Below are positions 14,013 through 63,487 of a DNA stretch of 64,000 bases, in pieces. The notes under the pieces were generated by a model that made no database searches, was not told where the DNA came from, and worked only from the letters and a program-made list of their open reading frames with translations. This DNA comes from Vibrio rarus (GTDB lineage: Bacteria > Pseudomonadota > Gammaproteobacteria > Enterobacterales > Vibrionaceae). A program made the translations under genes and the position numbers. The number at the start of each line of letters is the position of its first letter. The stretch's first letter is position 1. The DNA is taken from assembly GCF_024347075.1 (NCBI RefSeq), contig NZ_AP024901.1, positions 806,001 to 870,000 of the forward strand, read 5' to 3'.

Positions 14013-14343
14013 GATGTGGTCTCTTAAAATGAGTTTAAAAATATAGGGTTAGAGAATATTTGGTATCTGGTTGAGTATAGTTAACAAAGGCAAATTTTGC
14101 TGACGGTAAAATGTAATTTCATGGATTTCTTGATTGTTATTTAATCTAAACTAGCATTTATTAACATAAATATAACATGGTTGTATCGAAGGGTTGCTCA
14201 GATAACCTGCCGAGCGTGTGCTTAAATCTTTAGGGTTGCGCATACCTGACTGTTGTCGCCAGATATGCATTGACGTTCAAATGTTCTGATGAGCTGGTTA
14301 GATTCCGGCCTCAACATTGGCTCACCAGGAGGGTGACACGCTA
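14013..14343. other. Divergent promoter region between mscS-like gene and cta operon
   Basis: About 330 bp with no reading frame. The AT-rich middle (14130-14180) is a plausible promoter zone for one or both divergent genes, but no clear pair of hexamers or regulator box stands out. Confidence 0.35.
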
Positions 14344-15615
14344 ATGCGAGACCAAAACACGATTCAATCACATAACACTATGCCATTTTCAACCGCAGCT
14401 CCGTTGATGGAAAGAGTGCTGTTTGCTGAAAAAAAACGGTTTTCAAAAGCCCTGCAAGGGTGGGGAAATGTCGTGTGTCGGTTTGCGGTGTGTGTACTTT
14501 TTATTATGGGCAGTATTTCTCTCGCACAGGCTGAAACAGGCACTTCCTCTTTTAATACGACTCAAGGTGTAACTGAAATCAGTGGCAAGGTTTATCACTT
14601 GCATATGCTGATTTTTTATATTTGTGTTGCTATCGCCGTGGTGGTGTTTGGCGTGATGTTTTACTCCATTATTAAGCATCGTAAATCAAAAGGTGCGGTG
14701 GCAGCCAATTTTCATGAAAGCACCAAAGTGGAAATTATCTGGACGATTATCCCCATTGTTATTTTGATTGGTATGGCCATTCCCGCGACGAAAACCTTAA
14801 TTGAGATGGAAGACACGAGTGAATCGGATCTGACCATTAAGATTACTGGCTCACAATGGAAATGGCATTATCGTTATTTTGAGCATGATGTGGCGTTTTT
14901 CAGTTATTTATCTACGAGTAATGAACAAATTACAGGGATAGATGAAAAAGGCGAACACTATCTGCTTGAAGTGGATAACCCACTCGTTTTGCCCATAGGT
15001 AAAAAAATCCGTTTTCTTATGACCTCTGATGATGTGATTCACTCATGGTGGGTGCCTGACTTTGCGGTGAAAAAAGATACCATTCCAGGGTTTATAAATG
15101 AAGCATGGACAAAAATAGATAAGCCGGGGATATACCGAGGTCAGTGTGCAGAGTTGTGTGGTCGTAATCACGGCTTTATGCCGATTGTGGTTAAGGCGGT
15201 GAGCAGTGACGAATTTGATGCTTGGGTGCAAAGTAAGGAGCAGGAAATTGCTGCGGCTAAAATTGAGCAACAACAAGCGTTACAAAAAACCTTGAGCATG
15301 GATGAACTTATGGTTTTAGGTAAAGAGGTGTATGAGGGGCGCTGTGCGGTATGCCATCAAAGTAATGGCTTAGGTGTAGCAAATGTATTTCCTGCAATGA
15401 AAGGAAGTGCAGTGGTTCTAGGGGAAGTAGGCACTCACATTGATATTATTATGAATGGGGTGAATGGCACTGCCATGCAGGCGTTTGCAACACAATTAAC
15501 GGCAGAAGAAATAGCTGCGGTGGTGACGTATGAGCGTAATGCATGGGACAACAATACCGGTGACGTCGTGCAGGCATCTGACGTTAATGCGCAAATGAAT
15601 CCGGAGGGTGACTGA
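14344..15615 (+). CDS. ctaC: Cytochrome c oxidase subunit II with fused cytochrome c domain (aa3/caa3 type)
   Basis: A 423-residue membrane-anchored periplasmic subunit that takes electrons from cytochrome c. Two transmembrane helices follow the signal-like region, then a cupredoxin domain with the binuclear CuA site ([15 protein letters not shown]) and a C-terminal class I cytochrome c with CAVCH (about residue 335) and a later Met ligand. The fused haem domain makes this a caa3-like subunit. The ATG at 14344 is preferred over an in-frame TTG at 14317 because AGGAGG precedes it. The stop overlaps the ctaD ATG by one base, so the operon begins here. Confidence 0.93.
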
Positions 15616-17258
15616 TGAAAGCGTACGACAAAACCTCTACCTATGAGAGTTCGGCGACCGATGATCTCACCGCTTCTGGTGAGCAAGGCGCGACTGTGAG
15701 TGAGCATGAACATCATGGGCCAGCAAAAGGCATCGCACGCTGGATTTACTCTACTAACCATAAAGATATTGGTACTTTGTATTTATGGTTTAGCTTGATC
15801 ATGTTTTTTACCGGTGGTGCCATGGCTATGGTGATTCGCGCTGAACTCTTTCAGCCTGGGTTGCAATTAGTTGAGCCACAGTTTTTTAATCAAATGACCA
15901 CAGTGCACGGCTTAGTGATGGTGTTTGGTGCGGTGATGCCTGCTTTTACGGGATTGGCAAACTGGATGATCCCTATGATGATTGGCGCGCCAGATATGGC
16001 GTTACCTAGGATGAATAATCTCAGTTTTTGGATTCTACCTTTTGCGTTTCTTATTTTATTAAGCTCGTTATTTATGCCCGGTGGTGGCCCTGATTTTGGT
16101 TGGACGTTTTATGCGCCGCTTTCTACCACTTACGGGCCTGATAGTACCGCGCTGTTTGTGTTCTCCATTCATATTATGGGGATCAGTTCCATCATGGGGG
16201 CGATTAATGTCATTGTGACCATTTTTAATATGCGTGCTCCCGGTATGAACTTTATGAAAATGCCGTTGTTTGTTTGGACTTGGCTTATCACCGCATTTTT
16301 GCTCATTGCTGTCATGCCTGTACTGGCTGGTGCTGTCACTATGGTACTGACGGATAAGTACTTTGGAACGAGCTTCTTTGACGCAGCAGGAGGGGGCGAT
16401 CCGGTGATGTTCCAGCATATATTTTGGTTCTTTGGCCATCCTGAAGTTTATATTATGATCTTGCCCTCCTTTGGCATCATTTCAGCCATAGTTCCTGCTT
16501 TCAGTGGTAAAAAACTGTTTGGCTATCATTCTATGGTGTACGCCACTTGCTCCATTGCGCTGTTGTCATTTTTAGTCTGGGCGCATCATATGTTTACCAC
16601 AGGAATGCCGGTGTTTGCCGAGCTGTTCTTTATGTATTGCACTATGTTAATTGCGGTGCCAACTGGGGTGAAGGTATTCAACTGGGTGGCGACAATGTGG
16701 CGAGGGGCCTTAACTTTTGAAACGCCCATGTTATTTGCTATCGCCTTTATTGTACTGTTCACCATTGGCGGGTTTTCCGGTTTGATGTTAGCCATTGTTC
16801 CGGCGGATTTTCAGTATCATGATACTTACTTTGTGGTGGCGCACTTTCATTATGTGTTGGTGTCTGGTGCGGTATTTTCCATTATGGCTGCCGCCTATTA
16901 TTGGTTACCAAAGTGGACGGGCAATATGTACAACCAACGCCTTAGCCTAGTGCACTTTTGGACTTCTATCATCTCGGTCAATGTGTTGTTTTTTCCGATG
17001 CATTTCTTGGGGTTAGCGGGTATGCCAAGGCGAATACCCGATTACGCTATCCAGTTTGCCGATGTGAACCAAATTGTCTCTATAGGAGGGTTTGCCTTTG
17101 GCTTATCTCAGCTTATTTTCTTATGGGTGGTGATCAAATGTATTCGAGGAGGGGAAAAAGCGCCCGCTAAGCCGTGGCAGCGTGCAGAAGGATTAGAGTG
17201 GACTGTGCCTAGCCCCGCACCTCATCATACATTTTCGACGCCCCCTAAAGTGGATTAA
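15615..17258 (+). CDS. ctaD: Cytochrome c oxidase subunit I (aa3 type)
   Basis: A 547-residue, roughly 12-helix catalytic subunit that reduces O2 to water and pumps protons. Haem and copper ligands are visible: [11 protein letters not shown] (low-spin haem), [11 protein letters not shown] (CuB His and cross-linked Tyr), [10 protein letters not shown] (CuB pair) and [11 protein letters not shown] (haem ligands). These identify an A-type haem-copper oxidase. A GGAGG site inside the ctaC end precedes the ATG. Confidence 0.97.
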
Positions 17259-17264
17259 CGCATT

Positions 17265-17864
17265 ATGGGCAAGGGAATGTCGAATCAAAAACTCACTCTG
17301 GTACTGTGCGGCGCCACCTTAGCCATGTTTGGTTTTGGTTTTGCCTTGGTGCCTTTGTACGACATTTTGTGTGAGCAATTAGGTATTAACGGTAAAACGT
17401 CTACGGTGGCGGCCGTTCCCCCTACAGCGATGCAAGTGGATAAATCCCGAACCATTAAGGTGGAGTTTGTGTCGCATATTTCTGCTGGTTTGCCCATTGC
17501 TTTTGAGCCACAAAGTAAGGTGATAAAAGTTCATCCTGGGGAGGTGGTTCGCACCGCCTATATTGCCACTAATCATTCTCAATCAGCGCTGGTAGCACAA
17601 GCTGTGCCATCGGTAACACCCGGTTTGGGCGCGACCCATTTTAATAAAATAGAGTGTTTTTGTTTTAATCAGCAACCCTTAAAGGCTAAGCAACAAGCTG
17701 AGCTCCCTTTGCTATTTTATGTAGAACACGATCTGCCCGATTCCATACATACACTAACGTTGTCTTATACCCTTTATGACATCAGCGATAGTGTGGATAA
17801 CACCAATGAAACATTCGCCTCCTCTGCCGTACCGGAGTATGAAATGCAAGGAGATGCACTATGA
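17265..17864 (+). CDS. ctaG: Cytochrome c oxidase assembly protein CtaG (Cox11)
   Basis: A 199-residue copper chaperone for the CuB site of subunit I. One N-terminal membrane helix (about 8-30, LTLVLCGATLAMFGFGFALVPLYD) is followed by the periplasmic immunoglobulin-like domain containing the copper-binding CFCF motif (KIECFCFNQQPL). A second in-frame ATG at 17277 is an alternative start. It overlaps ctaE by 4 bp (ATGA), and the order I-Cox11-III is the standard proteobacterial one. Confidence 0.93.
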   Translation: MGKGMSNQKLTLVLCGATLAMFGFGFALVPLYDILCEQLGINGKTSTVAAVPPTAMQVDKSRTIKVEFVSHISAGLPIAFEPQSKVIKVHPGEVVRTAYIATNHSQSALVAQAVPSVTPGLGATHFNKIECFCFNQQPLKAKQQAELPLLFYVEHDLPDSIHTLTLSYTLYDISDSVDNTNETFASSAVPEYEMQGDAL

Positions 17865-18736
17865 ACGACAAGCCGTCAACGTATTATGTTCCCGCACAAA
17901 GTCAGTGGCCGTTAATTGCAGCATTCGCTCTGTTTTTTATTGCCGTAGGCGCCGGTATGACAGTGCAGACTATGGATGAAAAAGGAGGCGTGGGCCCTTG
18001 GTTATTGGGGCTTGGGTTTATTGGTTTGCTGGTGGTGCTTGCAGGGTGGTTTAGCAACGTGGTTCAAGAATCATTGGCGGGATATTACAGCGAGCAGATC
18101 ACACGATCTTTTAAACAAGGGATGAGTTGGTTTATTTTCTCTGAGGTGATGTTTTTTGGTGCCTTTTTTGGTGCTTTATTCTACGCCAGAATGTTTTCCG
18201 TCCCTTGGTTAGGCGGAGCCGATAATAACGTGATGACTCATGAAGTGCTTTGGCCATCTTTTGAAGCTATGTGGCCTCTCACGGAAACGCCGGCAGGGGT
18301 GACAACTCAAGCGATGGGGTGGCAGGGATTACCGCTAAAAAACACCGTTATTTTACTGTTATCCTCGGTCACTCTACATATGGCTCATGTCAGCCTTGAG
18401 CAAAACAAGCGTATGGCGTTGGTTGTGTGGCTTGAGTTGACCATTGTACTGGCAGGTTTTTTCCTGTTTTATCAAGCCGAAGAGTATATCCATGCTTACC
18501 AAGATATGGGGCTCACATTGCAATCTGGCATTTATGGCAACACCTTCTTTTTGCTTACTGGTTTTCATGGAATGCATGTTTTTATTGGCACACTCTTTCT
18601 GATTATATTGCTCTTTAGAATTAGCAAAGATCATTTTTCAGCCCACAATCATTTCGCTTTTCAGGCGGGCAGTTGGTATTGGCATTTTGTGGATGTGGTG
18701 TGGTTGTGTTTGTTCATATTTGTGTATGTGCTGTAG
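17861..18736 (+). CDS. ctaE: Cytochrome c oxidase subunit III
   Basis: A 291-residue integral membrane subunit of seven helices that stabilises proton uptake by subunit I. Diagnostic stretches are MSWFIFSEVMFFGAFFGALFYAR and, at the C-terminus, FHGMHVFIGTLFLIILLFR then WYWHFVDVVWLCLFIFVY. The gene starts inside the ctaG stop codon. Confidence 0.95.
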   Translation: MNDKPSTYYVPAQSQWPLIAAFALFFIAVGAGMTVQTMDEKGGVGPWLLGLGFIGLLVVLAGWFSNVVQESLAGYYSEQITRSFKQGMSWFIFSEVMFFGAFFGALFYARMFSVPWLGGADNNVMTHEVLWPSFEAMWPLTETPAGVTTQAMGWQGLPLKNTVILLLSSVTLHMAHVSLEQNKRMALVVWLELTIVLAGFFLFYQAEEYIHAYQDMGLTLQSGIYGNTFFLLTGFHGMHVFIGTLFLIILLFRISKDHFSAHNHFAFQAGSWYWHFVDVVWLCLFIFVYVL

Positions 18737-18768
18737 AAACGGGCTTTGTAAGGCGCAGAACCGTTTAC

Positions 18769-18990
18769 TTAATATGGCCTTTGGTTGGGGATAATCCAGC
18801 CTAGTTTTAATGCCAGGATCAGAAACAAGATAACCACCGCAGAGAGGACAACACGACGCCCTAAATAGCGAGTCATGGCAGTGGGATTATCGGGTTTTTC
18901 ACGCACCATGTTCACCAGAGCAAGGGCAAGATTAAATACGATAAACAGCAAACACAGGATGATGATTGATTTGAATAGTAGTGGTGCCAT
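18769..18990 (-). CDS. Twin-transmembrane DUF2909 protein
   Basis: A 73-residue protein with two hydrophobic helices (about 5-28 and 47-68) joined by a basic loop (NMVREKPDNPTAMTRYLGRR). This is the DUF2909 pattern found between subunit III and SURF1 in gammaproteobacterial aa3 loci such as Pseudomonas PA0109, also on the opposite strand. No function is established. Its 5' end overlaps the probable SURF1 start. Confidence 0.8.
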   Translation of the reverse strand: MAPLLFKSIIILCLLFIVFNLALALVNMVREKPDNPTAMTRYLGRRVVLSAVVILFLILALKLGWIIPNQRPY

Positions 18991-19753
18991 CAGATCCTCT
19001 AAGTCTTCTTATAAAGTTCTTGGGGTAAAAGCATTTTGGATAGTAGCGACGGTATTAACTGTGGCTCTGTTTGTGGTTTTGGTCAAATTAGGTTTTTGGC
19101 AACTTTCGCGAGGAGAGGAAAAGCAGCACTTAGAGCAGCAATTGCTGACAAGAGATCAAATGCCGGCGTTGTCTATTGAGCAAGTGGTCAGTTTTGCCGC
19201 GCAATCGAATGTGACGGGATACCCTTTAACAGTGGCTGTGACTGCGCAATCACAACCTTTAATTTATTTAGATAATGTCACTCATGATAGCAAGGTAGGT
19301 TATCGGGTACTGCAACCGATGAGTGTCAGTGTAGAGGGTGAAAGTAGACTATTGTTGGTTGAATTAGGTTTTATTAATGCAGCTGTAACACGAGATACAT
19401 TACCTGCTGTCACTGCCATCAACAGTCAGGAACAGCAAACCTTTAGTGGCAGGGTGTACCAAAAAAGTGCCAACCCCCTCAGCCATGATGTGATGGCAGA
19501 GCAGATGGCCACCTCTATTCGTATTCAGAATCTGAATTTACAGCAATTGGCGGTGATTTTAGAGAAGCCATTATTGGGTTTTGTTTTTCAGCCTAGCGTT
19601 ATACCAGATAGTGATCTACCTATGCTTTGGTCCCCTTACCCAATGACGTCACAGAAGCATTTTGGCTATGCATTGCAGTGGTTTTCCATGGCGATAGTGT
19701 ATGCGGTGCTGGTGATTTTGTTTGTCTTAAGAAAGAGAAAAGTTAAGGAATGA
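18962..19753 (+). CDS. SURF1-family cytochrome oxidase assembly protein
   Basis: About 263 residues. Two transmembrane helices flank a periplasmic domain: FWIVATVLTVALFVVLVKLGFWQLSRG near the N-terminus (the FWQL motif is typical of SURF1) and YALQWFSMAIVYAVLVILFVLRKRK at the C-terminus. SURF1 helps insert haem a into subunit I. The start is uncertain. ATG 18962 or TTG 18971 give a sensible N-terminus, but both lie within the 5' end of the divergent DUF2909 gene, and an even earlier ATG at 18875 would read antisense to most of it. Confidence 0.85.
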   Translation: MIDLNSSGAIRSSKSSYKVLGVKAFWIVATVLTVALFVVLVKLGFWQLSRGEEKQHLEQQLLTRDQMPALSIEQVVSFAAQSNVTGYPLTVAVTAQSQPLIYLDNVTHDSKVGYRVLQPMSVSVEGESRLLLVELGFINAAVTRDTLPAVTAINSQEQQTFSGRVYQKSANPLSHDVMAEQMATSIRIQNLNLQQLAVILEKPLLGFVFQPSVIPDSDLPMLWSPYPMTSQKHFGYALQWFSMAIVYAVLVILFVLRKRKVKE

Positions 19754-20340
19754 CTATGCTCAAAAACACATTAGGAACTCGGCAAGGCCAAACGATTTAC
19801 CAGCAACAAAAGCAAGGGCGTTTGAAGCTGCTAGCTCTATTGTTCATCTTTGCCGTTCCCGTTATTGCCGCGCATTTAATTCTCAATCAAGGGTGGTATC
19901 AATCTGGAGTGACTAATAAGGGCATACTCATTGAGCCTAGGTTTACTTTTACTGATGCGGGGTTAGTTAATCCCGTGAGCGAAAGGTGGCAGTTGGCGTT
20001 TATTGTGCCAGAGCAATGTGATGCCCTGTGTGAGCAAAGGTGGCATTTATTGAATCAAAGCTATATTGCTTTGGGCGCTTACAGTGAGCGGGTAGTGATT
20101 ACTTTGCTCGTTTCAGAAATCTCGGATAGTGCTTGGCTGGCGAAAAATAGGCAAGATCAACCCATCTTGATGTTTGATCAATCCTCCGTGCCAGTTAAGG
20201 CACAGGACTATTTATTGGTTGATCCTTTAGGTCAATGGGTGATGCGATACCCTGAGGTTAATGATGTTAATTTGGTGTCGCAGAACAAAGGTTTAATTGC
20301 TGATGTTCGGAAAATATTAAAGCTCTCCAGAGTGGGGTAG
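19750..20340 (+). CDS. Membrane-anchored protein of the cox locus, unknown function
   Basis: A 196-residue protein with one N-terminal membrane helix (about 26-46, LLALLFIFAVPVIAAHLIL) and a periplasmic domain. The segment RWQLAFIVPEQCDALCEQRWHLLNQ contains a CxxxC pair set like that of thioredoxin-fold or SCO-like proteins, and QDYLLVDPLGQWVMRYPE resembles their later strand. It sits where Pseudomonas PA0111 lies between SURF1 and ctaA. A role in oxidase copper or haem assembly is plausible but unproven. It overlaps SURF1 by 4 bp. Confidence 0.75.
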   Translation: MTMLKNTLGTRQGQTIYQQQKQGRLKLLALLFIFAVPVIAAHLILNQGWYQSGVTNKGILIEPRFTFTDAGLVNPVSERWQLAFIVPEQCDALCEQRWHLLNQSYIALGAYSERVVITLLVSEISDSAWLAKNRQDQPILMFDQSSVPVKAQDYLLVDPLGQWVMRYPEVNDVNLVSQNKGLIADVRKILKLSRVG

Positions 20341-20347
20341 GTAAGGT

Positions 20348-21397
20348 ATGCAAGGATGCATTTCAGTAAAGAGATTAACTTGGGTTGCATTAGCCATGAC
20401 TTTACTGGTGATTGCATTGGGTGCGTATACCCGTCTTGCAGATGCGGGGCTAGGTTGCCCTGATTGGCCTGGATGTTATGGGAAAATTGCTGTCCCCATG
20501 CAGGCAGAAGAGATAGCGCAAGCGCAGCAACGTTTTCCTGAAAGAGTGTTAGAAGTAGAGAAAGCTTGGCTGGAAATGATTCATCGTTACTTTGCAGGTA
20601 CATTGGGCTTAGTCGTGTTCGCACTTTCTTTTTTGCTTTGGAAAAACTCAGTTACGTCTAAAGTGTTGCCGGTGGTATTAAGTGGCGTGATCATCGCTCA
20701 AGCCGCCCTTGGCATGTGGACAGTGACGTTAAAGTTGATGCCTGCGATTGTGATGCTTCATTTACTTGGAGGGTTTACGTTATTTAGTTTATTGACTCTC
20801 TTACAGTGCCATTTAAGAAGCGCTTCTCTGGCGTGTAGCCAACTTCCCCACTCTACTTTGCGATCGGTGCGCGGGATTGCTGTTTGCGCCACCTTAGTGT
20901 TAGTTGTGCAAATCATGCTTGGTGGCTGGACATCTGCCAATTATGCGGCGTTGATGTGCTCATCCTTACCCATCTGTGAGGGAGAGTGGCAAAACCATTT
21001 GGATTTTTACAATGGTTTTAACTTGGTGCAAACAGGCTTTGATAATTACGAGTTTGGAGTATTGGATTATAGCGCTCGAATGACAATCCACGTGACTCAT
21101 CGAGTGGGTGCCATGGTGACGAGTATAGCCTTACTCGCATTGATAGTTCAGCTGTGGCGAACTTCGTTAATAGCCGCAAGAGGTTACGCAACGGCGATAG
21201 GAATTGGGCTTATCATTCAGTTAGGTTTGGGAATGGCTAATGTCGTGTTTCATCTACCTTTGCTGAATGCAGTGATGCATAACTTAGGCGCGGCGTTGTT
21301 GTTGGTTACCTTAGTCGCAACACAGTATTTTTTATGGATGAAAGTGAGCGCGTTACGTGCACGTACTCATGAAGCTGAAAGGGAGTATTTGCTATGA
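20348..21397 (+). CDS. ctaA: Haem A synthase (CtaA/Cox15)
   Basis: A 349-residue, eight-helix membrane enzyme that oxidises the C8 methyl of haem O to give haem A. Conserved pieces are [21 protein letters not shown] near the N-terminus and four histidines in membrane helices: [32 protein letters not shown] and [10 protein letters not shown]. The periplasmic cysteine pair (CSSLPIC) is also present. It overlaps ctaB by 4 bp. Confidence 0.93.
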
Positions 21398-22290
21398 GTC
21401 ACCTTGTTGGTACACAAACACGAGTTAGCCAAAAAAGTGCGTTGTATAGCTACTATCAGCTAACAAAGCCGAAAGTGGTGGCGCTGATGTTGTTAACCGC
21501 TGTGGTAGGGATGTGCTTGGCTATGCCCGGCGCTTTGCCATTACAGCAATCATTGTTCGCCTTGTTAGGCATAGGGTTTATGGCAGGTTCTGCCGCCGCA
21601 TTTAATCACCTTATTGACCAACGCATTGATGCTATTATGGCACGCACCTACAAACGACCTCTTCCATCTGGCGAACTCTCTTCTTCTCGAGTATTTATCT
21701 TTGCCACGGCTATTGGTATGGCTGGTTTTGCTGTCTTATGGTTGGGGGTGAATACGCTAACAGCACTATTAACTTTTGCCAGTCTGTTAGGTTATGCGGT
21801 GATTTATACGATGTACCTGAAAAGAGCCACTCCACAGAACATTGTGATTGCCGGTATTGCTGGGGCGATGCCACCATTGCTTGGCTGGGTTGCTGTCACT
21901 GGAGAGTTGCATGCTAACGCATGGTTATTGGTGATGATTATCTTCATTTGGACCCCACCCCACTTTTGGGCGTTAGCCATTCATCGCAAAGAGGACTATG
22001 CCAAGGCTGACATCCCAATGTTGCCTGTTACACACGGCGTCTCATACACAAAAACTAGCATCTTACTGTATACCATTTTATTGGCAGTAGTCTGTGCAAT
22101 GCCTGCTGTTGTGGGTATGAGTGGCCAGATATACCTTGCCAGTTCAACGATATTAAGTGCAGGCTTTATCTACCATGCATGGAAGCTAAAATACAAATCC
22201 GACAACAAACAAGCCATGACCACATTCAAGTTCTCCATCTATCATTTGATGCTACTATTTATAGCCCTATTAATAGACCATTACCTATGA
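21394..22290 (+). CDS. ctaB: Protoheme IX farnesyltransferase (haem O synthase)
   Basis: A 298-residue UbiA-family membrane enzyme that adds farnesyl to protohaem. The prenyl-diphosphate-binding motif [20 protein letters not shown] and the second conserved loop [21 protein letters not shown] are intact, as is TPPHFWALA. It is the last recognisable gene of the cta operon; the SCO gene that follows it in Pseudomonas is absent. Confidence 0.95.
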
Positions 22291-22624: not shown

Positions 22625-23677
22625 TTAACTGTGCTTCAGATGCTGACAACATCTAGAAAAATGCCGTCGTCGTTTTTCTAAATGTTCACAATAGGAAGTC
22701 ATCTCTTCTAGTGTCCCGACGGGGCCATGGAATAAATGGCCAAACTCTACTATCAGTTTCAGCCACGTCTCTTGAGAAAGGTTCATTTTTTCAAGAAGTG
22801 ACGGATGAGCATCATCCAAACTGCCTCGCTTATCATTACGAATAATCCGTCCGGTTTCATTCACTAAACTGAGATAATCAGATAATGAAAAGTGAATCCC
22901 TTTATCTTGATGTTGCTGCTCATTTCCGACAAAGGGTAACAAGGTTTTAGGTTGCTCACCTTTTATTGCAGCTCGTATGCGCAGTTGAATGCTGGTGTGG
23001 TTTGATTGCTCAACCGTTGTGGCCATTTTCGCTCTAATGGGGTTTAAATCCACGTAGGCCATGCAGGTTAATAGAGCCGTCTCATCAAGTAGGGCTTGTG
23101 ATTTAAAGCGCCCCTCCCAAAAGCGGCCAGTGCAGTTATCTTCTTGATTTGCTTGCCGCGCTATAGGCTCATTCAAACAACGCATAAACCAACTAATGTC
23201 ACACAAGCGGCTACGGTAAGTGGCGATGGCGTGTTTGAGTTGGGGGAGTTCAAACGCTTCGACTAGGTCACCTTGGACAAATTTATGCGTTAAGGCATCG
23301 CCTTTAAAACACTTATGCCACTGCTCAAGGACTTCTTTATCACTCCAATTGTTCGCTTTATCGATATCAATGCGTAACACCACATGTAAATGGTTGGACA
23401 TTATGGCAAAAGCGGCCACATCAATGGCAAATACGGTGGCTAGTTTGGTCAGCAGTGCCTCAACCCAACCTCGGCGATGGTCGTAGTTTTTACCAGAATA
23501 TGAATCGTGACCACAGAGGAAAGCACGCCTGACAACACGGCTACAACAGTGGTAGTAGGGCGTATCTTCAATACTAATTTGAGTTCTGCGAGGGCATGGC
23601 ATAAACGTACTCCAGCATTGGTGACTGAAATGAGTTTAGTTGAGGATAGGGGTTCTTGCTATTTACTATGGGTGGCT
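22421..23677. mobile_element. RAYT element 1 bounded by 12-bp inverted ends
   Basis: AGCCACCCATAG at 22421-22432 and its exact reverse complement CTATGGGTGGCT at 23666-23677 bracket a Y1 transposase gene, giving a 1257-bp unit. The second transposase copy (37225-38504) is bounded by the same sequence. The ends resemble REP-type sequences kept by REP-associated transposases. No target duplication was identified. Confidence 0.7.
22625..23602 (-). CDS. REP-associated Y1 (HUH) transposase, copy 1
   Basis: A 325-residue single-strand DNA transposase related to IS200/TnpA. The HUH pair is in SNHLHVVLRI (His 71 and His 73), and a candidate nucleophile Tyr 129 lies in ATYRSRL 56 residues later, the spacing expected for the family. 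The N-terminus PYYHCCSRVVRRAFLCG and the stretch GRFWEGRFKSQALLD then YVDLNPIRA are typical of RAYTs. It is full length and in frame, so probably functional. The copy at 37300 has the same length and is about three quarters identical by eye. Confidence 0.9.
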   Translation of the reverse strand: MPCPRRTQISIEDTPYYHCCSRVVRRAFLCGHDSYSGKNYDHRRGWVEALLTKLATVFAIDVAAFAIMSNHLHVVLRIDIDKANNWSDKEVLEQWHKCFKGDALTHKFVQGDLVEAFELPQLKHAIATYRSRLCDISWFMRCLNEPIARQANQEDNCTGRFWEGRFKSQALLDETALLTCMAYVDLNPIRAKMATTVEQSNHTSIQLRIRAAIKGEQPKTLLPFVGNEQQHQDKGIHFSLSDYLSLVNETGRIIRNDKRGSLDDAHPSLLEKMNLSQETWLKLIVEFGHLFHGPVGTLEEMTSYCEHLEKRRRHFSRCCQHLKHS

Positions 23678-37224: not shown

Positions 37225-38504
37225 AGCCACCCATACTAAATAGCACGATTCTGTCTCATCAACTAAACTATTAGCAGTGATAAATGCAGGAGCCCCACTA
37301 TGGCCACACCTCGCAGAGCTCAAATTAGTGTTGAAGATACGCCTTACTACCATTGTTGTAGTCGCGTGGTAAGGCGCGCTTTTCTTTGTGGTGATGACCC
37401 CTATTCAGGCAAAAGTTATGACCATAGGCGCGATTGGGTTGCCTCTCTTCTTGTGAAGCTCAACTCCGTATTTGCTATTGATGTCGCAGCATTTGCTGTT
37501 ATGTCCAATCACTTGCATGTTGTCTTACGCATTGATATCGATACGGCCAATAATTGGAGTGATAGAGAGGTTATTGAGCAGTGGCATCAACTGTTCAAAG
37601 GGGATGAATTGACGCGAAAATTTGTACGTGGTGACGTCATTGATGCCAATGAAGTCGCATCTCTAAAGCATACCATTGCGATTTATCGCAGTCGCTTATG
37701 CGACATCAGTTGGTTTATGCGTTGTCTTAATGAGCCTATTGCACGTCAAGCAAATCAAGAAGATAACTGCACAGGTCGGTTTTGGGAAGGACGGTTCAAA
37801 TCTCAAGCATTGCTGGATGATGCGGCACTTATTACGTGTATGGCGTATGTGGACTTAAACCCTATTCGAGCAAAGGTCGCCACATCTTTAGAGCAGTCCA
37901 ATCACACAAGTATTCAGCAACGTATTCAGTCAGCCTTAAAGAGAGAGCAACCGGCATCTTTGTTACCTTTAATAGGACATGAGCGTGAAAATCAGCCCAA
38001 AGGCATAGCGTTTTCGCTAAGTGACTATTTAGCATTAGTGGATGAAACAGGGCGGATTATTCGTCGTGACAAACGAGGCGCTATCAGTGAGCACAGCGAG
38101 CAACTGCTGACGAAGCTAAATATTGACCATGAGAATTGGCTGAGGCTGATTACTGAGTTTGGCCATTTATTCCACGGCCCTGTGGGAAGCCTTGCAGAGT
38201 TAACCTGTTACTGTGAGCACTTACAAAAACGGCGACGGCATTTTTCTAAATGTTGTCGGCACTTGCAAGTAAGTTAGAGCAGATTTTTTTAATTTAATTC
38301 CCTTTACCTTCATTTAATACTCCGTAGTCTCGCTATGGGGATTTCTGCTGTTTGTTAAACGGGCTTTTGGCATGAAAAGGGTTTAATTTTGGCAAGAAAA
38401 TGCCGGAAATTGTGAGAAAGCCCTCCTTTAGAGGGTAAACACTAGTTAACGGGTTTTAGATAGTGGATATAGATGGATAACTGCTTGTTTTATTATGGGT
38501 GGCT
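37225..38504. mobile_element. RAYT element 2 bounded by 11-bp inverted ends
   Basis: AGCCACCCATA at 37225-37235 and TATGGGTGGCT at 38494-38504 bracket the second Y1 transposase gene (1280 bp). Immediately left is a two-copy 10-bp repeat (ACTTTTAATC), whose second copy aligns with the sequence left of element 1 (ACTCTTAAGTCT). The conserved left end therefore extends beyond the perfect inverted repeat. Confidence 0.7.
37300..38277 (+). CDS. REP-associated Y1 (HUH) transposase, copy 2
   Basis: A 325-residue transposase with the same HUH motif (SNHLHVVLRI) and candidate tyrosine (IYRSRLCDISWF) as the copy at 22625, aligning without gaps but with many substitutions, so the two are not a recent duplicate. 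GCAGGAG precedes the ATG. Frame and motifs are intact. The gene points away from the LysR gene and toward the Bat operon end. Confidence 0.9.
   Translation: MATPRRAQISVEDTPYYHCCSRVVRRAFLCGDDPYSGKSYDHRRDWVASLLVKLNSVFAIDVAAFAVMSNHLHVVLRIDIDTANNWSDREVIEQWHQLFKGDELTRKFVRGDVIDANEVASLKHTIAIYRSRLCDISWFMRCLNEPIARQANQEDNCTGRFWEGRFKSQALLDDAALITCMAYVDLNPIRAKVATSLEQSNHTSIQQRIQSALKREQPASLLPLIGHERENQPKGIAFSLSDYLALVDETGRIIRRDKRGAISEHSEQLLTKLNIDHENWLRLITEFGHLFHGPVGSLAELTCYCEHLQKRRRHFSKCCRHLQVS

Positions 38505-40214: not shown

Positions 40215-40221
<7 letters not shown>
38572..40221 (-). CDS. batD: BatD-family protein
   Basis: A 549-residue exported membrane protein, the last gene of a Bat operon. A signal peptide (ending STWA) precedes a beta-rich region typical of BatD (LRASVTKTTVSKDEVIQLKI), and a C-terminal helix (about 425-447) anchors it with a cytoplasmic tail. 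Bat proteins have been linked to stress tolerance and envelope functions; the molecular role is unresolved. The ATG at 40221 overlaps the previous gene by 7 bp; an in-frame ATG at 40209 is possible. Confidence 0.85.
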
Positions 40222-42300
<2,079 letters not shown>

Positions 42301-42308
<8 letters not shown>

Positions 42309-48582: not shown

Positions 48583-48637
48583 AAAAAAGCCCTGATATTT
48601 ACTGGTTTAGTTAAAAGTAAATCAGGGCTTTTTTTTA
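48583..48637. terminator. Bidirectional terminator between nitrobindin-like gene and ccoP
   Basis: AAAAAGCCCTGAT pairs with ATCAGGGCTTTTT, with an inner TTTACT/AGTAAA extension, and T runs on both outer sides. It overlaps the ccoP stop. Confidence 0.9.
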
Positions 48638-50791
48638 TTTAATGTTGATGTTTCTATCTCGCAGATCGTACATATCGGGTGTGGTATGCACCCCACCGGC
48701 AAAGCCTGCTTTTTCTAATGTTTCTCGAACTTGTTTTACATCTTCTGCAGAGACCACAATGTCTCTTGCCCCTAAATGGTAGCGAACAAAGGTGATCAGC
48801 TCGGCGAGTTTCTGATCCGATAACACGTCTTCAAAACTTGCCATCGGCATAAAGTTTTTATCTTCAACCAAATAGGTAGGAGCTAAGCCGCGCACAGCAA
48901 CCGCAATGGTATTGAAAGGGTCACGATGCATAATGATACCGTTATTCAATAACGCAGGAGCAATGGGATCACGCCCTTTACCATCTTCCCCATGGCATGC
49001 GCCACAGGTTTGTTGGTAGACGGAATAAATGTCGGTATTATAGGCGCTTTCATCAAAGCCTTTGGCCTTGAGTACTTTAGCCTCTGGGTCAATGAAATTA
49101 TTGTTGTCCCCTTGAATGAGGTAGTAGGCCATGGCTTCTACATCATCACGAGACATCAAGCTGAGACTATTTTTAACCACATCGGCCATGCCAGCAAAGG
49201 CGGTGCCCTTATCTGAGTGTCCGGTATGTAAAAAGTCGCTTAAAACGTCAGTGTCCCAACCATCGATATACAGCTCATTGGCAGTAATATCTGGCGCATT
49301 CCATCCATCAATGATGTTACCTTGGAATATGCGATCACTGATGATGGCTTGGGCGAGGTTACGTGGTGAGTGACATTCAGAGCAATGGCCTAATCCTGCA
49401 ACCAAATACTTACCTTGTTGCCATTTTTCAACCTCTTGCACGCTCTCTTTTATCTGTGCGGGCACGTCATAAGATAGTGGGCTAGTGTCCATAAACACCA
49501 CATTCCAGCCAAATAAACCTAAACGAATATTGGAAGGAAATAGCATACTGTTGTCATTATTACGCCTTGCGACAGCGGTGATGGATTGTAAATATTGCCA
49601 CATATCCTGCATATCTTGTTCTTTGACATACTGATAAGAGGTGTAGGGCATTGCTGGATATAAATAACCATGGCGTCCTTTGCCATCCACCAGTGCGGCT
49701 TTAAAGTCCTGATAATTATATTGGCCAATGCCTTCACTGGCATGAGGGGTAATATTGGTGGAGTAGACAGTACCAAATGGCGTCACAAAAGGCAGTCCAC
49801 CGGCAAAAGGTTCACCACCTTCTGCGCTATGACATGCCACGCAATCTCCAGCATGAGCTAAATACTCTCCTCGTTGGATGGCATCACTATCAAGACCGGC
49901 CAGTTTGATATCTTGGTCTAGACGATCACGGGTGAGCATAGCACCAATGGCTAAAATTTCGTTGTGCGTTAACTGACTGGCAAAAGCGGGCATGACGTTA
50001 TTTAGACCAAAACGTATGCTGTGCTGGATCTCTTCAATACTGCCACCGTGTAGCCAAATATCATCCGATAAAATAGGCACGCCAATTTCCGGATTGGCAA
50101 CGGAGCCATCACCGTGACAGGCGGAACAGTATTGAGTGAACAAGTGTTTCCCAAGTTCCACTTTTACGGGGGGAACATCCGTATGACGTTGATTTAATGA
50201 GGCTAAAAAGTATGACAGTTTAGCTATTTCATCATCGTTAAGAATTTCGTTATAGCCAGCCATAGCGCCGTTGCGCCCTTTTTCTATAGAGTGAAGGATC
50301 GCTTCATCCGTGCCACCATACAGCCAGTCATTATCGATTAGGTTAGGGAAGTGCTTTTGACCTTGAGCATTGTCTCTATGACAGGCTGCGCAATGGGTTT
50401 GAAATAATATTCGTCCAGAGTCCGTGATGGCTTTGTTATCGGCAAGGTGTGTTAATGAAGTATCGGTGACCTTGGCAAACTGCTCATCTAAAGAGGTCAC
50501 GGGCGAACTTAATTTGTCATCGCTTTGCTGCCAATCAACTAAGCCTTGCCAGTTGCCTAGCCCTGGATAGAGCACGAGAAAACCGACCGCAAGACAAAAT
50601 GCAATGAAGTAACCTACAAATAAGATCTTGGGTGGAGGTGCATCGTTTTCGTCAATACCATCAAATGTTGCCAACGACTTGCTGGCGTTCGCCTCATGAT
50701 TTTTTCGCCAGTATTTGATGATAATGCTAACCATTAATAGCAAAAAAATAACAATGCAGGTTACAGCCCATAAATTCCAGAAATGACTCAT
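48635..50791 (-). CDS. ccoP: CcoP fused to a triheme dehydrogenase-type cytochrome c (five haem sites)
   Basis: A 718-residue periplasm-facing cytochrome. Two N-terminal helices (about 5-26 and 57-76) and two c-type haem sites, C134-H138 (CAACH) and C222-H226 (CSACH), make up a normal cbb3 CcoP. After about residue 300 the sequence changes to the three-haem subunit of membrane-bound alcohol or gluconate dehydrogenases, with sites C317-H321 (CVACH), C470-H474 (CSECH) and C596-H600 (CGACH) and typical stretches such as GEPFAGGLPFVTPFGTVYS. CcoP is usually about 300 residues with two haems. No CcoQ gene is present. It overlaps ccoO by 4 bp. Direct electron input from a periplasmic dehydrogenase is inferred. 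Confidence 0.85.
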   Translation of the reverse strand: MSHFWNLWAVTCIVIFLLLMVSIIIKYWRKNHEANASKSLATFDGIDENDAPPPKILFVGYFIAFCLAVGFLVLYPGLGNWQGLVDWQQSDDKLSSPVTSLDEQFAKVTDTSLTHLADNKAITDSGRILFQTHCAACHRDNAQGQKHFPNLIDNDWLYGGTDEAILHSIEKGRNGAMAGYNEILNDDEIAKLSYFLASLNQRHTDVPPVKVELGKHLFTQYCSACHGDGSVANPEIGVPILSDDIWLHGGSIEEIQHSIRFGLNNVMPAFASQLTHNEILAIGAMLTRDRLDQDIKLAGLDSDAIQRGEYLAHAGDCVACHSAEGGEPFAGGLPFVTPFGTVYSTNITPHASEGIGQYNYQDFKAALVDGKGRHGYLYPAMPYTSYQYVKEQDMQDMWQYLQSITAVARRNNDNSMLFPSNIRLGLFGWNVVFMDTSPLSYDVPAQIKESVQEVEKWQQGKYLVAGLGHCSECHSPRNLAQAIISDRIFQGNIIDGWNAPDITANELYIDGWDTDVLSDFLHTGHSDKGTAFAGMADVVKNSLSLMSRDDVEAMAYYLIQGDNNNFIDPEAKVLKAKGFDESAYNTDIYSVYQQTCGACHGEDGKGRDPIAPALLNNGIIMHRDPFNTIAVAVRGLAPTYLVEDKNFMPMASFEDVLSDQKLAELITFVRYHLGARDIVVSAEDVKQVRETLEKAGFAGGVHTTPDMYDLRDRNINIK

Positions 50792-51399
50792 TGCAGAACC
50801 TCCTCTGCAGTATCAACTCCTAAACTTTGTAAGTAACGAATTAATGCCTCCCCTTTTGTTTTCCCGCGTACTTGTAATCGGGCATCTGCGATTTCATTCT
50901 CTGAGTAAGGTACACCTAAGGTTTGTAACGCTCGCATTTTATCTGTGATGTCATCACCAGAAAGTTTATGTTCAAAAAGCCATGGATAAGCGGGCATGAT
51001 GGACGTTGGAATGACATCTCTAGGGTTGACTAAGTGCAGTACATGCCATTGATCGGAGTACTTTCTGCCAAGGTTGGTTAAGTCAGGCCCTGTGCGTTTA
51101 GAGCCCCAAAGGTTAGGGAATTCATAAATATCATCCGGTTCTTGGTTGGCTCTACCATTGCGTTTTGTTTCCGGCTCTAGTGGGCGCACCATTTGCGTAT
51201 GACAAACATGACACCCTTCACTGATATAAATATCGCGTCCAGCGATTTGGATGGCGGTGAGGGGTTTAGCCGAGCTATTTAATGCCAGTTCCGGTCCTCT
51301 TACAATATTGGGGACAATCAATACCAAGATTGAAAAAGAGGCAACAATGAGGGTGGCGATGATGAGAATCAGCACCGATTGAGTGAAGTCTTTACTCAT
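50788..51399 (-). CDS. ccoO: cbb3-type cytochrome oxidase subunit II
   Basis: A 203-residue membrane-anchored monohaem cytochrome c. One N-terminal helix (about 9-31) precedes the haem site EGCHVCHTQMVRPLEPE, and a distal Met ligand may lie in PTSIMPAYPWLFEH. This matches CcoO. It overlaps ccoN by 1 bp and ccoP by 4 bp, so N-O-P form one operon. Confidence 0.92.
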   Translation of the reverse strand: MSKDFTQSVLILIIATLIVASFSILVLIVPNIVRGPELALNSSAKPLTAIQIAGRDIYISEGCHVCHTQMVRPLEPETKRNGRANQEPDDIYEFPNLWGSKRTGPDLTNLGRKYSDQWHVLHLVNPRDVIPTSIMPAYPWLFEHKLSGDDITDKMRALQTLGVPYSENEIADARLQVRGKTKGEALIRYLQSLGVDTAEEVLQ

Positions 51400-52814
51400 T
51401 ATAAAGTCTCCCTTTTAAGCACTAGCTTAGGCATTTTTACCGTTTTATAGAGGTTGTATACCATGAGCAATAAGCCGAGTACGAATAAGGCCCCACCTAA
51501 GAAACGTAACAATAACCATGGGGCTTTAAAGTCCATAGCTTCGACAAAGCTATACATAAGTTCACCGTTGTCATTTTGTGCCAGCCACATATAGCCCTCA
51601 CCAATGCCTGCAACCCATAAAGCAATGGCATAAATAGCCACTCCGGCATGAGCAAGCCAGAAGTGCCATTTGATTAAGCGCGCGGACCACAGTTTGTCTT
51701 TGTCCCACAATTTTGGGATAAAATAGTAAAATACGGCAATGCCAGACATGCCTACCCAACCTAAAGCCGCAGAATGTACATGACCAATAATCCACTCGGT
51801 GTTGTGCGCTAACATATTGAACCAACGTATGGCCAATAGCGGCCCTTCAAAGGTGGCCAAGCAGTAATACATAATGGCGGAGAAGAAGAACAACATAATG
51901 TAGTCATTTTTCAGCTTTTGCTTGTTTTGCAGTAACGTCATAGCGCTGTTAAATGCGCCCCCCCATGACGGTAACCACAAGATAAGTGACATCACAATCC
52001 CGATATTTTGTACCCAAATAGGCACGGAAGAGTAAATAAGATGATGGGTTCCTGCCCATGTATAAAAGCCGACTAATCCCCAAAAGTGAATCACAGAAAG
52101 GCGATAGGAATAGATAGGACGTTCTGACACTTTAGGGATGAAATAATAGTTCATCCCGATAACGCCTGCGGTGAGAAGAAAGCCTACGGCATTGTGCCCC
52201 CACCACCATTGAACAATGGCATCTTGAGCGCCGGCAAACACCGAATACGATTTTGTTAAAGAGGCGGGAAGCGCCAGATTATTCACCACAAAAATTAATG
52301 CGATAACAATAATAAAGGCAGCAAAGAACCAGTTAGCGACAAAGATGTGATGGACCTTTCGCTTGGCAATGGTGCCAAAAAACAAAATGGCATACAGCAC
52401 CCACACTAAAACAATAAGAAGATCGATAGGCCATTCCAGTTCGGCATACTCTTTTGACGTGGTGTATCCCAAAGGTAAGGAGAGCACGGCTAATAGCAAG
52501 ACCAGTTGCCAGCCCCAAAAGACCATCCAAGCTAAACTTTTATTAAATAACTGGCATTGACCTGTGCGTTGAGCAATATAAAGAGAGGCACCCATTAGCA
52601 TGTTGACCACAAACCCATATATTACCCCTGAGGTGTGCAAGGGGCGCAAGCGGCCAAATTGAATGTATTCAGAGTCAAAATTTAAACTAGGCCAGTACAG
52701 TTGGGCAGCTAATACCACGCCAATGAACATACCGATCACGGCCCATACAACGGACGCCATAACGAAGTATTTGACCACCTTAGTGTCGTACTGTGGGATT
52801 GTGTTTTCCATCAC
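51399..52814 (-). CDS. ccoN: cbb3-type cytochrome oxidase catalytic subunit I
   Basis: A 471-residue, 12-helix haem-copper oxidase subunit. Ligand regions are RPLHTSGVIYGF, WWWGHNAVGFLLTAG (CuB His), GTHHLIYSSVP (CuB pair) and IIGHVHSAALGWVG (haem ligands). The catalytic tyrosine of C-type oxidases lies in IMYYCLATFEGP. NO reductase (NorB) is the main alternative, but the TFEGP context with this Tyr favours the oxidase. It is 9 bp downstream of a small cytochrome c gene. Confidence 0.93.
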   Translation of the reverse strand: MMENTIPQYDTKVVKYFVMASVVWAVIGMFIGVVLAAQLYWPSLNFDSEYIQFGRLRPLHTSGVIYGFVVNMLMGASLYIAQRTGQCQLFNKSLAWMVFWGWQLVLLLAVLSLPLGYTTSKEYAELEWPIDLLIVLVWVLYAILFFGTIAKRKVHHIFVANWFFAAFIIVIALIFVVNNLALPASLTKSYSVFAGAQDAIVQWWWGHNAVGFLLTAGVIGMNYYFIPKVSERPIYSYRLSVIHFWGLVGFYTWAGTHHLIYSSVPIWVQNIGIVMSLILWLPSWGGAFNSAMTLLQNKQKLKNDYIMLFFFSAIMYYCLATFEGPLLAIRWFNMLAHNTEWIIGHVHSAALGWVGMSGIAVFYYFIPKLWDKDKLWSARLIKWHFWLAHAGVAIYAIALWVAGIGEGYMWLAQNDNGELMYSFVEAMDFKAPWLLLRFLGGALFVLGLLLMVYNLYKTVKMPKLVLKRETL

Positions 52815-52822
52815 GTCATCCT

Positions 52823-53161
52823 TTACTGCTGAGGTTTTTGACCAAGCTTGGAGAAGAAGTACGAGACATCTTCAATATCTTGATCGGACAGAGCGTCAGC
52901 TTGTTGCTGCATGAGTATTGCGAGGCCACTACTGCGTTCGCGAGCTTTGTAATCTTTTAGGGATGAAATGAGATACCCCATTTTCTGACCGCGCAGGTTG
53001 GGGTAGGGATCTAATGTTGAAATGCCATCTTCACCATGGCAGGTCATACACACTTTGGCTTTTGCTTGACCCACTGCAAATTGAGCGTCTTCTTCTGCTA
53101 AAGCATTTCCTGTTAAAGCAATGCAGCTAAATCCAAGTAGAGTGATTAAATGCATTTTCAT
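52823..53161 (-). CDS. Periplasmic c-type cytochrome
   Basis: A 112-residue class I cytochrome c with a signal peptide (about 1-22, ending NALA). The haem site is KVCMTCHGEDG, and IDYPNLRGQ-like sequence (DPYPNLRGQKMGYLISSLKDYK) with a distal Met is typical of the c4/c5/c553 group. It is the first gene of the cbb3 operon and could donate electrons to it. Confidence 0.9.
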   Translation of the reverse strand: MKMHLITLLGFSCIALTGNALAEEDAQFAVGQAKAKVCMTCHGEDGISTLDPYPNLRGQKMGYLISSLKDYKARERSSGLAILMQQQADALSDQDIEDVSYFFSKLGQKPQQ

Positions 53162-61753: not shown

Positions 61754-63487
61754 GTGAAACAGAGAGTTCAATCACAATTGATGGTGAGTTTTGGTGGAGC
61801 ATCATGGCAAGGGATGCGGGATGAAAACCAAGATGCATTTCTAGTTAAGGTGCCGCAACAGCGATATGAACGAGAGCATAAAGGGGTGGTGGCCTGTATA
61901 GCCGATGGTGTCAGTTGCAGTAATCACAGTCAAAAGGCAAGCCACACCGCGGTTATGCAGTTTGTGAGCGATTACTATTCTACTCCTGACAGTTGGAGTA
62001 TTCAGCATTGCGCCAGTAAAATTTTGACCAGCATGAATAACTGGTTATTTACTGAGGGGTTAAAGCAGAGCCTTAAGCATAATGGATTAGTGACCACCTT
62101 TAGTGCGGTGATATGTAAATCCAATACGGCGCATTTATTTCATGTGGGGGATACCAGAATTTACCGCGTAAGAGGGGGTAAGGTTAAGTTGCTCACTCGT
62201 GATCATCAAAGGGTCAACTTTGGACAAAATCCGCATCTTATCCGAGCCTTGGGAATGGACAGTCGATTAGATGTGGACTATCAATCTTTTGAGTTACAAG
62301 TTAGTGATCGCTTTATCTTAACCAGCGATGGTGTACACGATACGATTGCACAAAATGATCTCTACAGCATGTTTACATCTCAAGTGAGTAAAGAGCCGTT
62401 GGCTGACAGCATAAGCCAAATGGCCATAGATCAAGGAAGTACCGATAACGTCACCTGTTTAATCTTGGATGTGGAGCAATTACCTAGCCATTCACTATTA
62501 GAACATCAAGCTCAATTGCTTTCTCGCACTGTGCCTCCCGCTTTAAAAGTAGGTAATAAAATTGACCAGTATCGGGTGACTAAGGTGCTGTATGCGGGGC
62601 CTAGAAGTTATGTATATCAAGTTGTTGATGAGCATGGGGTAAGCAAGGTGCTTAAAGCGCCGTCACTGACTTACAGTGAGGATATTGAGCATTTAAACCA
62701 ATTAGCGAATGAGTATTGGGTGGGGCGGCAACTTAATAGTGAGCGAGTGATGAAGGTGTATCCGGTTGCAGACGATACTCGGTTTGTCTATCAACTGTGT
62801 GAGTTTATTGATGGTATTACGCTTCGGCAGTGGATGTTTGATAACCCTAATCCGAGCATAAATAAGGTGCGCACCATTATTGAGGGGATCATTAAAGGGG
62901 TACGGGTACTGCAACGCGCGGATATGGTACATGGAGATTTAAAGCCAGAAAATATTCTTATCACTGAATCAGAAGAGGTTAAACTTATCGATTTTGGTGC
63001 GGTAAAAGCATTAGGGCTAGAAGAAATAGTGACTAGCAATCAAAGCTGTGAGCCTTTGGGAGCGGTAAACTATATTGCTCCTGAAAGTATAGATACGGGA
63101 GAGGCGAGTACATTATCGGATCTGTTTTCCGTGGCGGTGATTGGCTATGAAATGCTGTGCGGCGAGTTGCCTTATAAGCCCATATCGGCACAAGTGGCGC
63201 AATCGACTCGCCATCATAAATGGCATTACCGGCCACTGCAGCAGTTTCGTGGCGATATGCCAGCATGGTTAGACTTGGTGTTTCGCAAAGCTACACAAAC
63301 CAATCCCAGTGTTCGTTATCAGGCGCTAGGGGATTTTTTGCTGGATCTAGCCACGCCTAACCCACAATTAGTAAAAAAAGCGAAACAGAGCCCCTTATTA
63401 AAAAGAGACCCTGTGCTGTTTTGGAAGTCATTAGCGATCATTGCTATAGCGACCGCTTGCTTACAATCGTTATGGTTACTCGGCTAG
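61754..63487 (+). CDS. Bifunctional PP2C phosphatase / Ser-Thr protein kinase
   Basis: A 577-residue fusion. The N-terminal PP2C domain (about 1-240) keeps its metal sites: GMRDENQDAF, CIADGVSC, LTRDHQR, LTSDGVHD and STDNVTCLIL. The kinase domain (about 270-535) has the ATP lysine in SKVLKAPS, the catalytic loop MVHGDLKPENI, DFGAVKA, and the activation segment to NYIAPES. The usual Arg before the catalytic Asp is Gly (HGD), a type that may not need activation-loop phosphorylation. A C-terminal helix (about 557-576) anchors it in the membrane. GTG start after GGAAGG. It ends the nitrate cluster; its target is unknown. Confidence 0.88.
   Translation: MKQRVQSQLMVSFGGASWQGMRDENQDAFLVKVPQQRYEREHKGVVACIADGVSCSNHSQKASHTAVMQFVSDYYSTPDSWSIQHCASKILTSMNNWLFTEGLKQSLKHNGLVTTFSAVICKSNTAHLFHVGDTRIYRVRGGKVKLLTRDHQRVNFGQNPHLIRALGMDSRLDVDYQSFELQVSDRFILTSDGVHDTIAQNDLYSMFTSQVSKEPLADSISQMAIDQGSTDNVTCLILDVEQLPSHSLLEHQAQLLSRTVPPALKVGNKIDQYRVTKVLYAGPRSYVYQVVDEHGVSKVLKAPSLTYSEDIEHLNQLANEYWVGRQLNSERVMKVYPVADDTRFVYQLCEFIDGITLRQWMFDNPNPSINKVRTIIEGIIKGVRVLQRADMVHGDLKPENILITESEEVKLIDFGAVKALGLEEIVTSNQSCEPLGAVNYIAPESIDTGEASTLSDLFSVAVIGYEMLCGELPYKPISAQVAQSTRHHKWHYRPLQQFRGDMPAWLDLVFRKATQTNPSVRYQALGDFLLDLATPNPQLVKKAKQSPLLKRDPVLFWKSLAIIAIATACLQSLWLLG

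Follow-up and report, generated by a model that had tools for sequence, protein, structure and literature searches.

A cbb3-type oxidase cassette of Vibrio rarus whose CcoP is joined to a three-haem dehydrogenase cytochrome

The Cassette and Its Genes

The window considered here is a stretch of 64,000 nucleotides from Vibrio rarus (NZ_AP024901.1, positions 806,001 to 870,000), situated on contig C2 (1,007,363 bases), one of the three contigs that make up a 3.88 Mb genome. It houses a self-contained cassette encoding a second cbb3-type cytochrome c oxidase of this genome, in which the CcoP subunit carries five haem motifs (CxxCH). The four genes lie end to end on the minus strand, in the order small cytochrome, ccoN, ccoO and five-haem ccoP, with the following features (window coordinates; aa, amino acids).

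52823..53161, minus strand: small monohaem cytochrome c of the c4/c554 type (112 aa), operon gene 1 (phmmer and tblastn)
51399..52814, minus strand: ccoN, catalytic subunit of cbb3 oxidase (471 aa; GTG start, with ATG directly after) (TIGR00780; 3mk7_A alignment)
50788..51399, minus strand: ccoO, monohaem subunit (203 aa) (FixO; NF011055; one CxxCH)
48635..50791, minus strand: five-haem ccoP (718 aa) (domain and structure-chain matches, motif positions)
49922..50791, minus strand: CcoP part, residues 1–290, with membrane helix, FixP_N and haem sites 134 and 222 (FixP_N; TIGR00782)
48695..49891, minus strand: three-haem dehydrogenase-cytochrome part, residues 301–699, with haem sites 317, 470 and 596 and candidate axial Met 381, 535 and 650 (8gy2_B match)
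48638..48763, minus strand: C-terminal tail, residues 677–718, G699 and H702 invariant (23 fused proteins)

The frames and coordinates proposed for the operon in a first-pass annotation, made from the sequence alone, hold as given, and so does its small cytochrome c gene ahead of ccoN. That gene ends 8 bases before ccoN, while ccoN and ccoO overlap by 1 base and ccoO and ccoP by 4, a spacing from which the four genes very probably form a single operon. Because of these overlaps there is no room for ccoQ between the ccoN, ccoO and ccoP frames, and none is found in the cassette, as the annotation had also noted.

The larger contig of the genome, C1, holds an ordinary ccoN-ccoO-ccoQ-ccoP operon, after which come fixH and a gene for a cation-transport ATPase. 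Its ccoQ is a 57-aa frame between ccoO and ccoP, taken as such from its place and size, and the two CcoN copies of the genome are 53% identical.

Identity of the Oxidase Subunits

The cassette CcoN scores 604.7 bits against TIGR00780 (cut-off 583.15) and aligns to 3mk7_A without gaps over residues 7–463. Kept in this alignment are H60, H207, Y251, H257, H258, E323, H345 and H347, which we take to comprise the C-family cross-linked tyrosine together with the ligands of haem and CuB. Since these active-site columns are kept, oxygen reduction would be expected to follow normal cbb3 chemistry. CcoO, with one CxxCH motif, matches FixO (5.1e-60) and lies above the cut-off of NF011055 (231 against 218 bits) and below that of TIGR00781 (195.8 against 200.65). 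In the CcoP part, FixP_N (1.1e-7) and two cytochrome domains fall within residues 1–285, and the score against TIGR00782 (179.0 bits) is marginally below the equivalog cut-off of 179.95. By phmmer the small cytochrome is related to cytochrome c554 (2zzs_A, 3.3e-25) and cytochrome c4 (1etp_A, 5.1e-20).

The cassette therefore holds the CcoN, the CcoO and the dihaem CcoP with FixP_N anchor that mark the C family, and lacks CcoQ. This absence is not treated as defining because CcoQ is dispensable for cbb3 activity, according to the accessible text of PMC8780969. Compared with canonical cbb3 oxidases (P. stutzeri 3mk7 and the genome's own ccoNOQP), the likeness covers the CcoN active-site residues, CcoO and the first 285 residues of CcoP, while the cassette differs in having no CcoQ, in bringing its own c4/c554-type cytochrome gene and in a CcoP longer by three haems.

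Architecture and Conservation of the Five-Haem CcoP

The five-haem CcoP consists of 718 residues with CxxCH motifs at 134, 222, 317, 470 and 596, exactly as first annotated. When its halves are matched separately, residues 1–283 find solved CcoP chains (3mk7_C, 4.8e-38; 8smr_G, 1.4e-42), while residues 301–699 find the three-haem alcohol dehydrogenase subunit 8gy2_B (3.5e-62, chain residues 40–444 of 478). Over most of its length the second half also matches the three-haem subunits of glucose, fructose and aldehyde dehydrogenases, 8gy2_B being the best. The protein is thus a true CcoP (about residues 1–285) fused via a short linker to a nearly complete dehydrogenase cytochrome, which bears out the fusion first proposed. 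A second half made of generic class I cytochrome repeats was considered as well and is ruled out by the near full-length subunit matches.

Among 23 aligned fused proteins (that of V. rarus included), all five haem motifs are invariant, as are Met 177, 267, 381, 535, 648 and 650, so that each motif is followed by at least one invariant candidate axial Met. A pattern of five motifs arising by chance is not compatible with this invariance. The three motifs of the module and their three Met residues are kept in both fused and stand-alone forms. Conservation is least in the linker (residues 291–303, ca. 13 residues), with a mean pairwise identity of 0.34, against 0.71–0.72 in the three-haem part and 0.61–0.66 in the CcoP haem domains; the module is no less conserved than those domains. 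That the fusion is neutral, its module carrying no electrons, is scarcely credible when the architecture is so strongly conserved across genera, haem-binding motifs included, and nothing was found in favour of neutrality except two broken copies of the cassette (genomes G038 and G058).

A comparison of 26 fused rows with 53 stand-alone forms gave 37 positions that are invariant in the former and rare in the latter, 17 of which fall in the third-haem domain (Fisher p 0.002). These third-haem positions may mark a partner surface altered since the fusion, a suggestion to be held loosely since shared ancestry alone also yields clade-specific residues. The tail of the fused clade carries an invariant G-x-x-H (G699, H702) which, by eye, was not seen in the stand-alone tails compared.

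Distribution and Origin

Twenty of the 71 genomes G001–G071 hold the five-haem cassette at full length, and two more (G038 and G058) hold broken copies. It is found in none of the 47 remaining genomes of the 119-genome set (the V. rarus genome and 118 others), the carriers all being of the same genus. In the broken cassettes (L061 and L062) ccoP lies in two frames, with ccoN either split or short, which points to a recent loss within one lineage. An order-level sample, in which at most two candidates per genome were scored, recovered the form in 18 of 394 genomes (V. rarus included), of which 14 belong to the same genus, one to a different genus of the family and three to two other families. 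At class level (1e-75), no fusion was seen outside the genus among 369 genomes, a weak negative with at most three candidates scored per genome. Named carriers among the best 80 matches comprise 20 rows of Vibrio, Photobacterium, Aliivibrio and Shewanella, with one titled only Vibrionales bacterium, and in a plasmid collection Vibrio campbellii and another Vibrio record also carry the five-haem form.

In a phylogenetic tree, the 26 fused proteins come together in one clade by their three-haem parts (support 100/100). This clade groups with seven cytochromes from molybdenum IorAB-type loci (98/88), and those linked to GMC enzymes lie apart from it. The tree is rooted at midpoint only, with long branches meeting at the nearest join. 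Its rows were labelled from gene clusters in the same locus, with a Pfam check on one of them, L109 (MoCoBD_1 1.5e-39, Fer2_2 3.7e-19), and a PF02738 search also matches a further labelled row (G027, L066). To the Shewanella IorAB-type subunit of L109, the module is 42% identical over 402 aligned columns. The architecture arose once and is conserved across Vibrio, Photobacterium, Aliivibrio and Shewanella, and its module derives from a periplasmic dehydrogenase's cytochrome subunit, most likely one of the molybdenum type. The alcohol/gluconate ascription of the first-pass annotation is accordingly right as to a three-haem dehydrogenase subunit (the 8gy2_B match) and wrong as to the gluconate type, the nearest kin in the tree being IorAB-like. 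One Shewanella row stands amid Vibrionaceae rows and one Photobacterium row amid Vibrio rows, which suggests horizontal transfer of the cassette.

Search for a Partner Dehydrogenase

Forty-nine cassette loci were compared, at least five of them being second fetches of the same contig and two being the broken cassettes. The small cytochrome is matched by tblastn in all 49, and the same four genes recur while other neighbours differ between lineages. An IorAB-type dehydrogenase lies near the cassette in one locus (L178:4895-16129, genome G684), where the molybdenum operon possesses its own three-haem cytochrome and is convergent on the five-haem ccoP, while a SorA-type enzyme lies near it in none of the 49. 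The neighbouring dehydrogenase without a cytochrome of its own, as first anticipated, finds no support in these loci. None of the 22 carriers among the relatives searched has a PF02738, PF00732 or long PF01011 match within 10 kb of the cassette.

The V. rarus genome itself has no match to PF13618 (Gluconate_2-dh3), PF02738 (MoCoBD_1) or PF00174 (Oxidored_molyb). PF00732 (GMC) gave one partial match (25.8 bits against a cut-off of 23, profile positions 136–198) in a 1014-residue frame, and PF01011 (PQQ) three short pieces in one 395-residue frame, presumably of the size of BamB. Two carriers with intact cassettes, G065 and G023, have no match to PF13618, PF02738 or PF00732, and PF13618 is matched in none of the cassette carriers. 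PF02738 frames of at least 950 residues occur in three carriers (G027, G034 and G042). With the tested families absent or weak in the V. rarus genome and absent in G065 and G023, persistence of the cassette does not require a known partner.

These results bear on the reading, present in the first-pass annotation, in which the three-haem part receives a periplasmic dehydrogenase encoded at another locus, whose electrons would then reach oxygen directly, without passing through the quinone pool or the bc1 complex. It draws on the ancestry of the module, on the retention of all three haem motifs and candidate Met ligands, on the convergent IorAB-type operon of G684, and on a different, four-haem CcoP that shares its operon with a sulfite-oxidase-family enzyme (L063–L065, described below). 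The 48 loci without an IorAB-type neighbour and the 49 without a SorA-type one, the empty 10 kb flanks, the searches of V. rarus, G065 and G023, and the fused-specific positions of the third-haem domain, which look as if the partner had changed, leave it rather unlikely. Nor is a bypass of bc1 required, since the genome encodes cytochrome c1 of that complex (61 bits) and the ordinary route is available. The five-haem CcoP might alternatively be a docking platform in a one-piece chain from dehydrogenase to oxygen, in which a periplasmic oxidoreductase, belonging to a class that escaped recognition in these searches, would bind the re-specialised third-haem face and drive oxygen reduction and proton pumping directly, without quinone pool or bc1; this too we regard as unlikely.

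Relatives of the three-haem module in acetic-acid bacteria exchange electrons with ubiquinone, and the module could by analogy oxidise quinol directly, making the complex a bc1-free quinol:oxygen oxidoreductase. Against this, the C-terminal 60 residues of the 26 fused rows contain no hydrophobic stretch (highest 17-residue Kyte-Doolittle mean 0.95), and the genome has the cytochrome c1 just mentioned; a role of this kind is very improbable. Stand-alone rows are alike in C-terminal hydrophobicity, reaching up to 0.97.

Nitrogen-Oxide Genes and the Comparison with Neisseria

In the fetched stretches, norR is present at four of the 49 loci (L060, L181 and the same-contig pair L052/L094), hcp at three (L060, L181 and L182) and hcr at four (L060, L181, L182 and L104). 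With the cassette, these genes span L060:1338-11023, L181:1455-10851 and L182:8604-17783, the last without a norR match. All seven genes run in the same direction in L060, a member of the first branch within the fused clade; in L181 norR and the cassette are divergently oriented; and narGHJI-like frames, named by eye, lie on the other side in L182. The accessible text of PMC1274295 presents norR2-hcp-hcr as a standard Vibrionales unit. The cassette in the window adjoins genes resembling assimilatory nitrate and nitrite reductases (named by eye).

Upstream of the cassette, NorR and sigma-54 sites were near chance in 47 regions (lowest p 0.03, for sigma-54 in L097), the shuffles having kept base content only. 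The best FNR box in the window matches 7 of 10 positions, and no site is common to 41 loci, where scores are mostly 6–8 (L088 reaches 9 and L050 8, the two at a similar distance); the ordinary ccoN of V. rarus also has only a 7. Because no NorR, sigma-54 or FNR site stands out, the norR, hcp and hcr neighbours are a lead only.

The nearest precedent described for such a lengthened CcoP is the tri-haem CcoP of Neisseria, which in the accessible text of PMC2924362 branches electrons to the nitrite reductase NirK. The same source stated in 2010 that all annotated CcoP were dihaem except that of Neisseria. Both proteins have gained a C-terminal haem extension by natural gene fusion; in Neisseria, as far as that text describes it, a single haem derives from cytochrome c5, follows a 42-residue Ala/Ser/Pro stretch and serves as an outlet to NirK, whereas here three haems derive from a dehydrogenase cytochrome, the linker has ca. 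13 residues and NirK has no match. The extension thus lacks both features of the Neisseria type, homology to c5 and donation to NirK. A NirK outlet of that kind was considered and rejected, there being no match in the V. rarus genome or in 22 carriers.

In a broader form, the extension could still act as an outlet, leading electrons from the oxidase branch to some periplasmic reductase. The only described natural CcoP extension that was found acts in this manner (tri-haem CcoP and NirK, in the part of PMC2924362 available), norR, hcp or hcr is found close to some cassettes, and that of the window adjoins the nitrate and nitrite reductase-like genes. This is nevertheless improbable, given that nitrogen-oxide neighbours occur in a minority of loci, that the upstream regions show no outstanding NorR or sigma-54 site, and that the search for copper nitrite reductase (TIGR02376, E 1e-10), NirK being the only reductase tested, was negative in the V. 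rarus genome and 22 fused-carrying relatives.

Proposed Electron Route

The reading preferred here, to which we attach about even confidence, is that the five-haem CcoP would act as an extended electron-entry wire fed by a periplasmic cytochrome c. A reduced cytochrome, most likely the cassette's own small one, would deliver electrons to the three-haem module, being itself supplied by bc1 or other periplasmic donors. The module would pass them to the two CcoP haems, and from there they would proceed through CcoO to the haem b3-CuB site, where CcoN and CcoO would reduce oxygen as in other cbb3 oxidases. The direction of flow and the identity of the donor are inferred from the constant presence of a c4/c554-type cytochrome in the operon and from PDB entries 8smr and 8snh, which contain cbb3 chains together with a cytochrome c4. 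The reading also draws on the domain matches, the kept CcoN active-site columns, the recurrence of the four genes in varied surroundings, the strong conservation and single clade of the three-haem part, and the missing or weak matches to dehydrogenase families in the V. rarus genome.

Work on R. capsulatus, as described in the accessible text of PMC7876108, has cytochrome c2 positioned to feed the nearer CcoP haem. In the same text an engineered c1-CcoP-cy fusion, with a cytochrome domain on the CcoP C-terminus, appears to pass electrons. The module described here is joined at this same end of CcoP, via a short linker, and the R. capsulatus protein differs in being engineered, with a single haem, a 69-residue linker and a fusion to bc1 too.

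Several observations weigh against an entry wire. The module descends from a protein that served a dehydrogenase, and in G684 the cassette stands beside an IorAB-type dehydrogenase operon. Many carriers hold GMC enzymes (mostly 550–590 residues) or PF02738 proteins (ca. 800 residues), and long PQQ matches occur in two, G040 and G049. An AlphaFold model of the protein was of low quality (mean pLDDT 56.5, pTM 0.48) and could not place haems.

Relation to Other Lengthened or Three-Haem Proteins

With the three-haem dehydrogenase subunits (8gy2_B, 8gy3_A, 7w2j_C, 8hdd_B and the IorAB type), the module shares near full-length likeness, the three CxxCH motifs and candidate axial Met ligands. It differs from them in being joined to an oxidase subunit, in being encoded apart from any dehydrogenase that it might serve, and in a C-terminal tail of its own.

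The four-haem CcoP of L063–L065 resembles the five-haem form in its lengthening and in a ccoO/ccoP overlap that leaves no ccoQ between, and differs in that its two extra motifs are, by eye, c4-like and a molybdenum enzyme is adjacent. Its operons (L063:5737-11101, L064:5221-10641 and L065:6255-11617) have the order ccoN-ccoO-ccoP4, then a sulfite-oxidase-family enzyme and a small haem protein; CcoP has 488–489 aa with four CxxCH motifs, and in L063 the enzyme matches Oxidored_molyb (6.9e-45) and Mo-co_dimer (6.1e-12). They occur in G051, G118 and G034, of which G051 and G034 also carry the five-haem cassette. The four-haem operon places an oxidase arm next to a periplasmic molybdenum enzyme more directly than the five-haem cassette does.

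Other Features of the Window

At 14317-22290 lies a second haem-copper oxidase cluster, aa3/caa3-like by eye, with Cox11-, SURF1-, CtaA- and CtaB-like frames (by eye) and a protein named by eye as CoxB-like, which carries a cytochrome domain (domain match). Positions 40215-42308 encode a protein of 697 aa in which a long Gln run and a long Ser-Gln-Gln repeat run make up a tract that is likely slippage-prone. Two 325-aa paralogues on opposite strands (22625-23602 and 37300-38277) are, by eye, REP-associated transposases. A 577-aa protein at 61754-63487, by eye a PP2C phosphatase fused to a Ser/Thr kinase, adjoins nitrate-transporter-like and nirBD-like genes.

Significance

Searches of the open-access literature, which left subscription papers outside their scope, turned up no description of a five-haem CcoP. 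The conserved five-haem form shows that an entire dehydrogenase cytochrome can be taken over by an oxidase as an additional arm, and it provides a testable case of respiratory-chain rewiring on the donor side.

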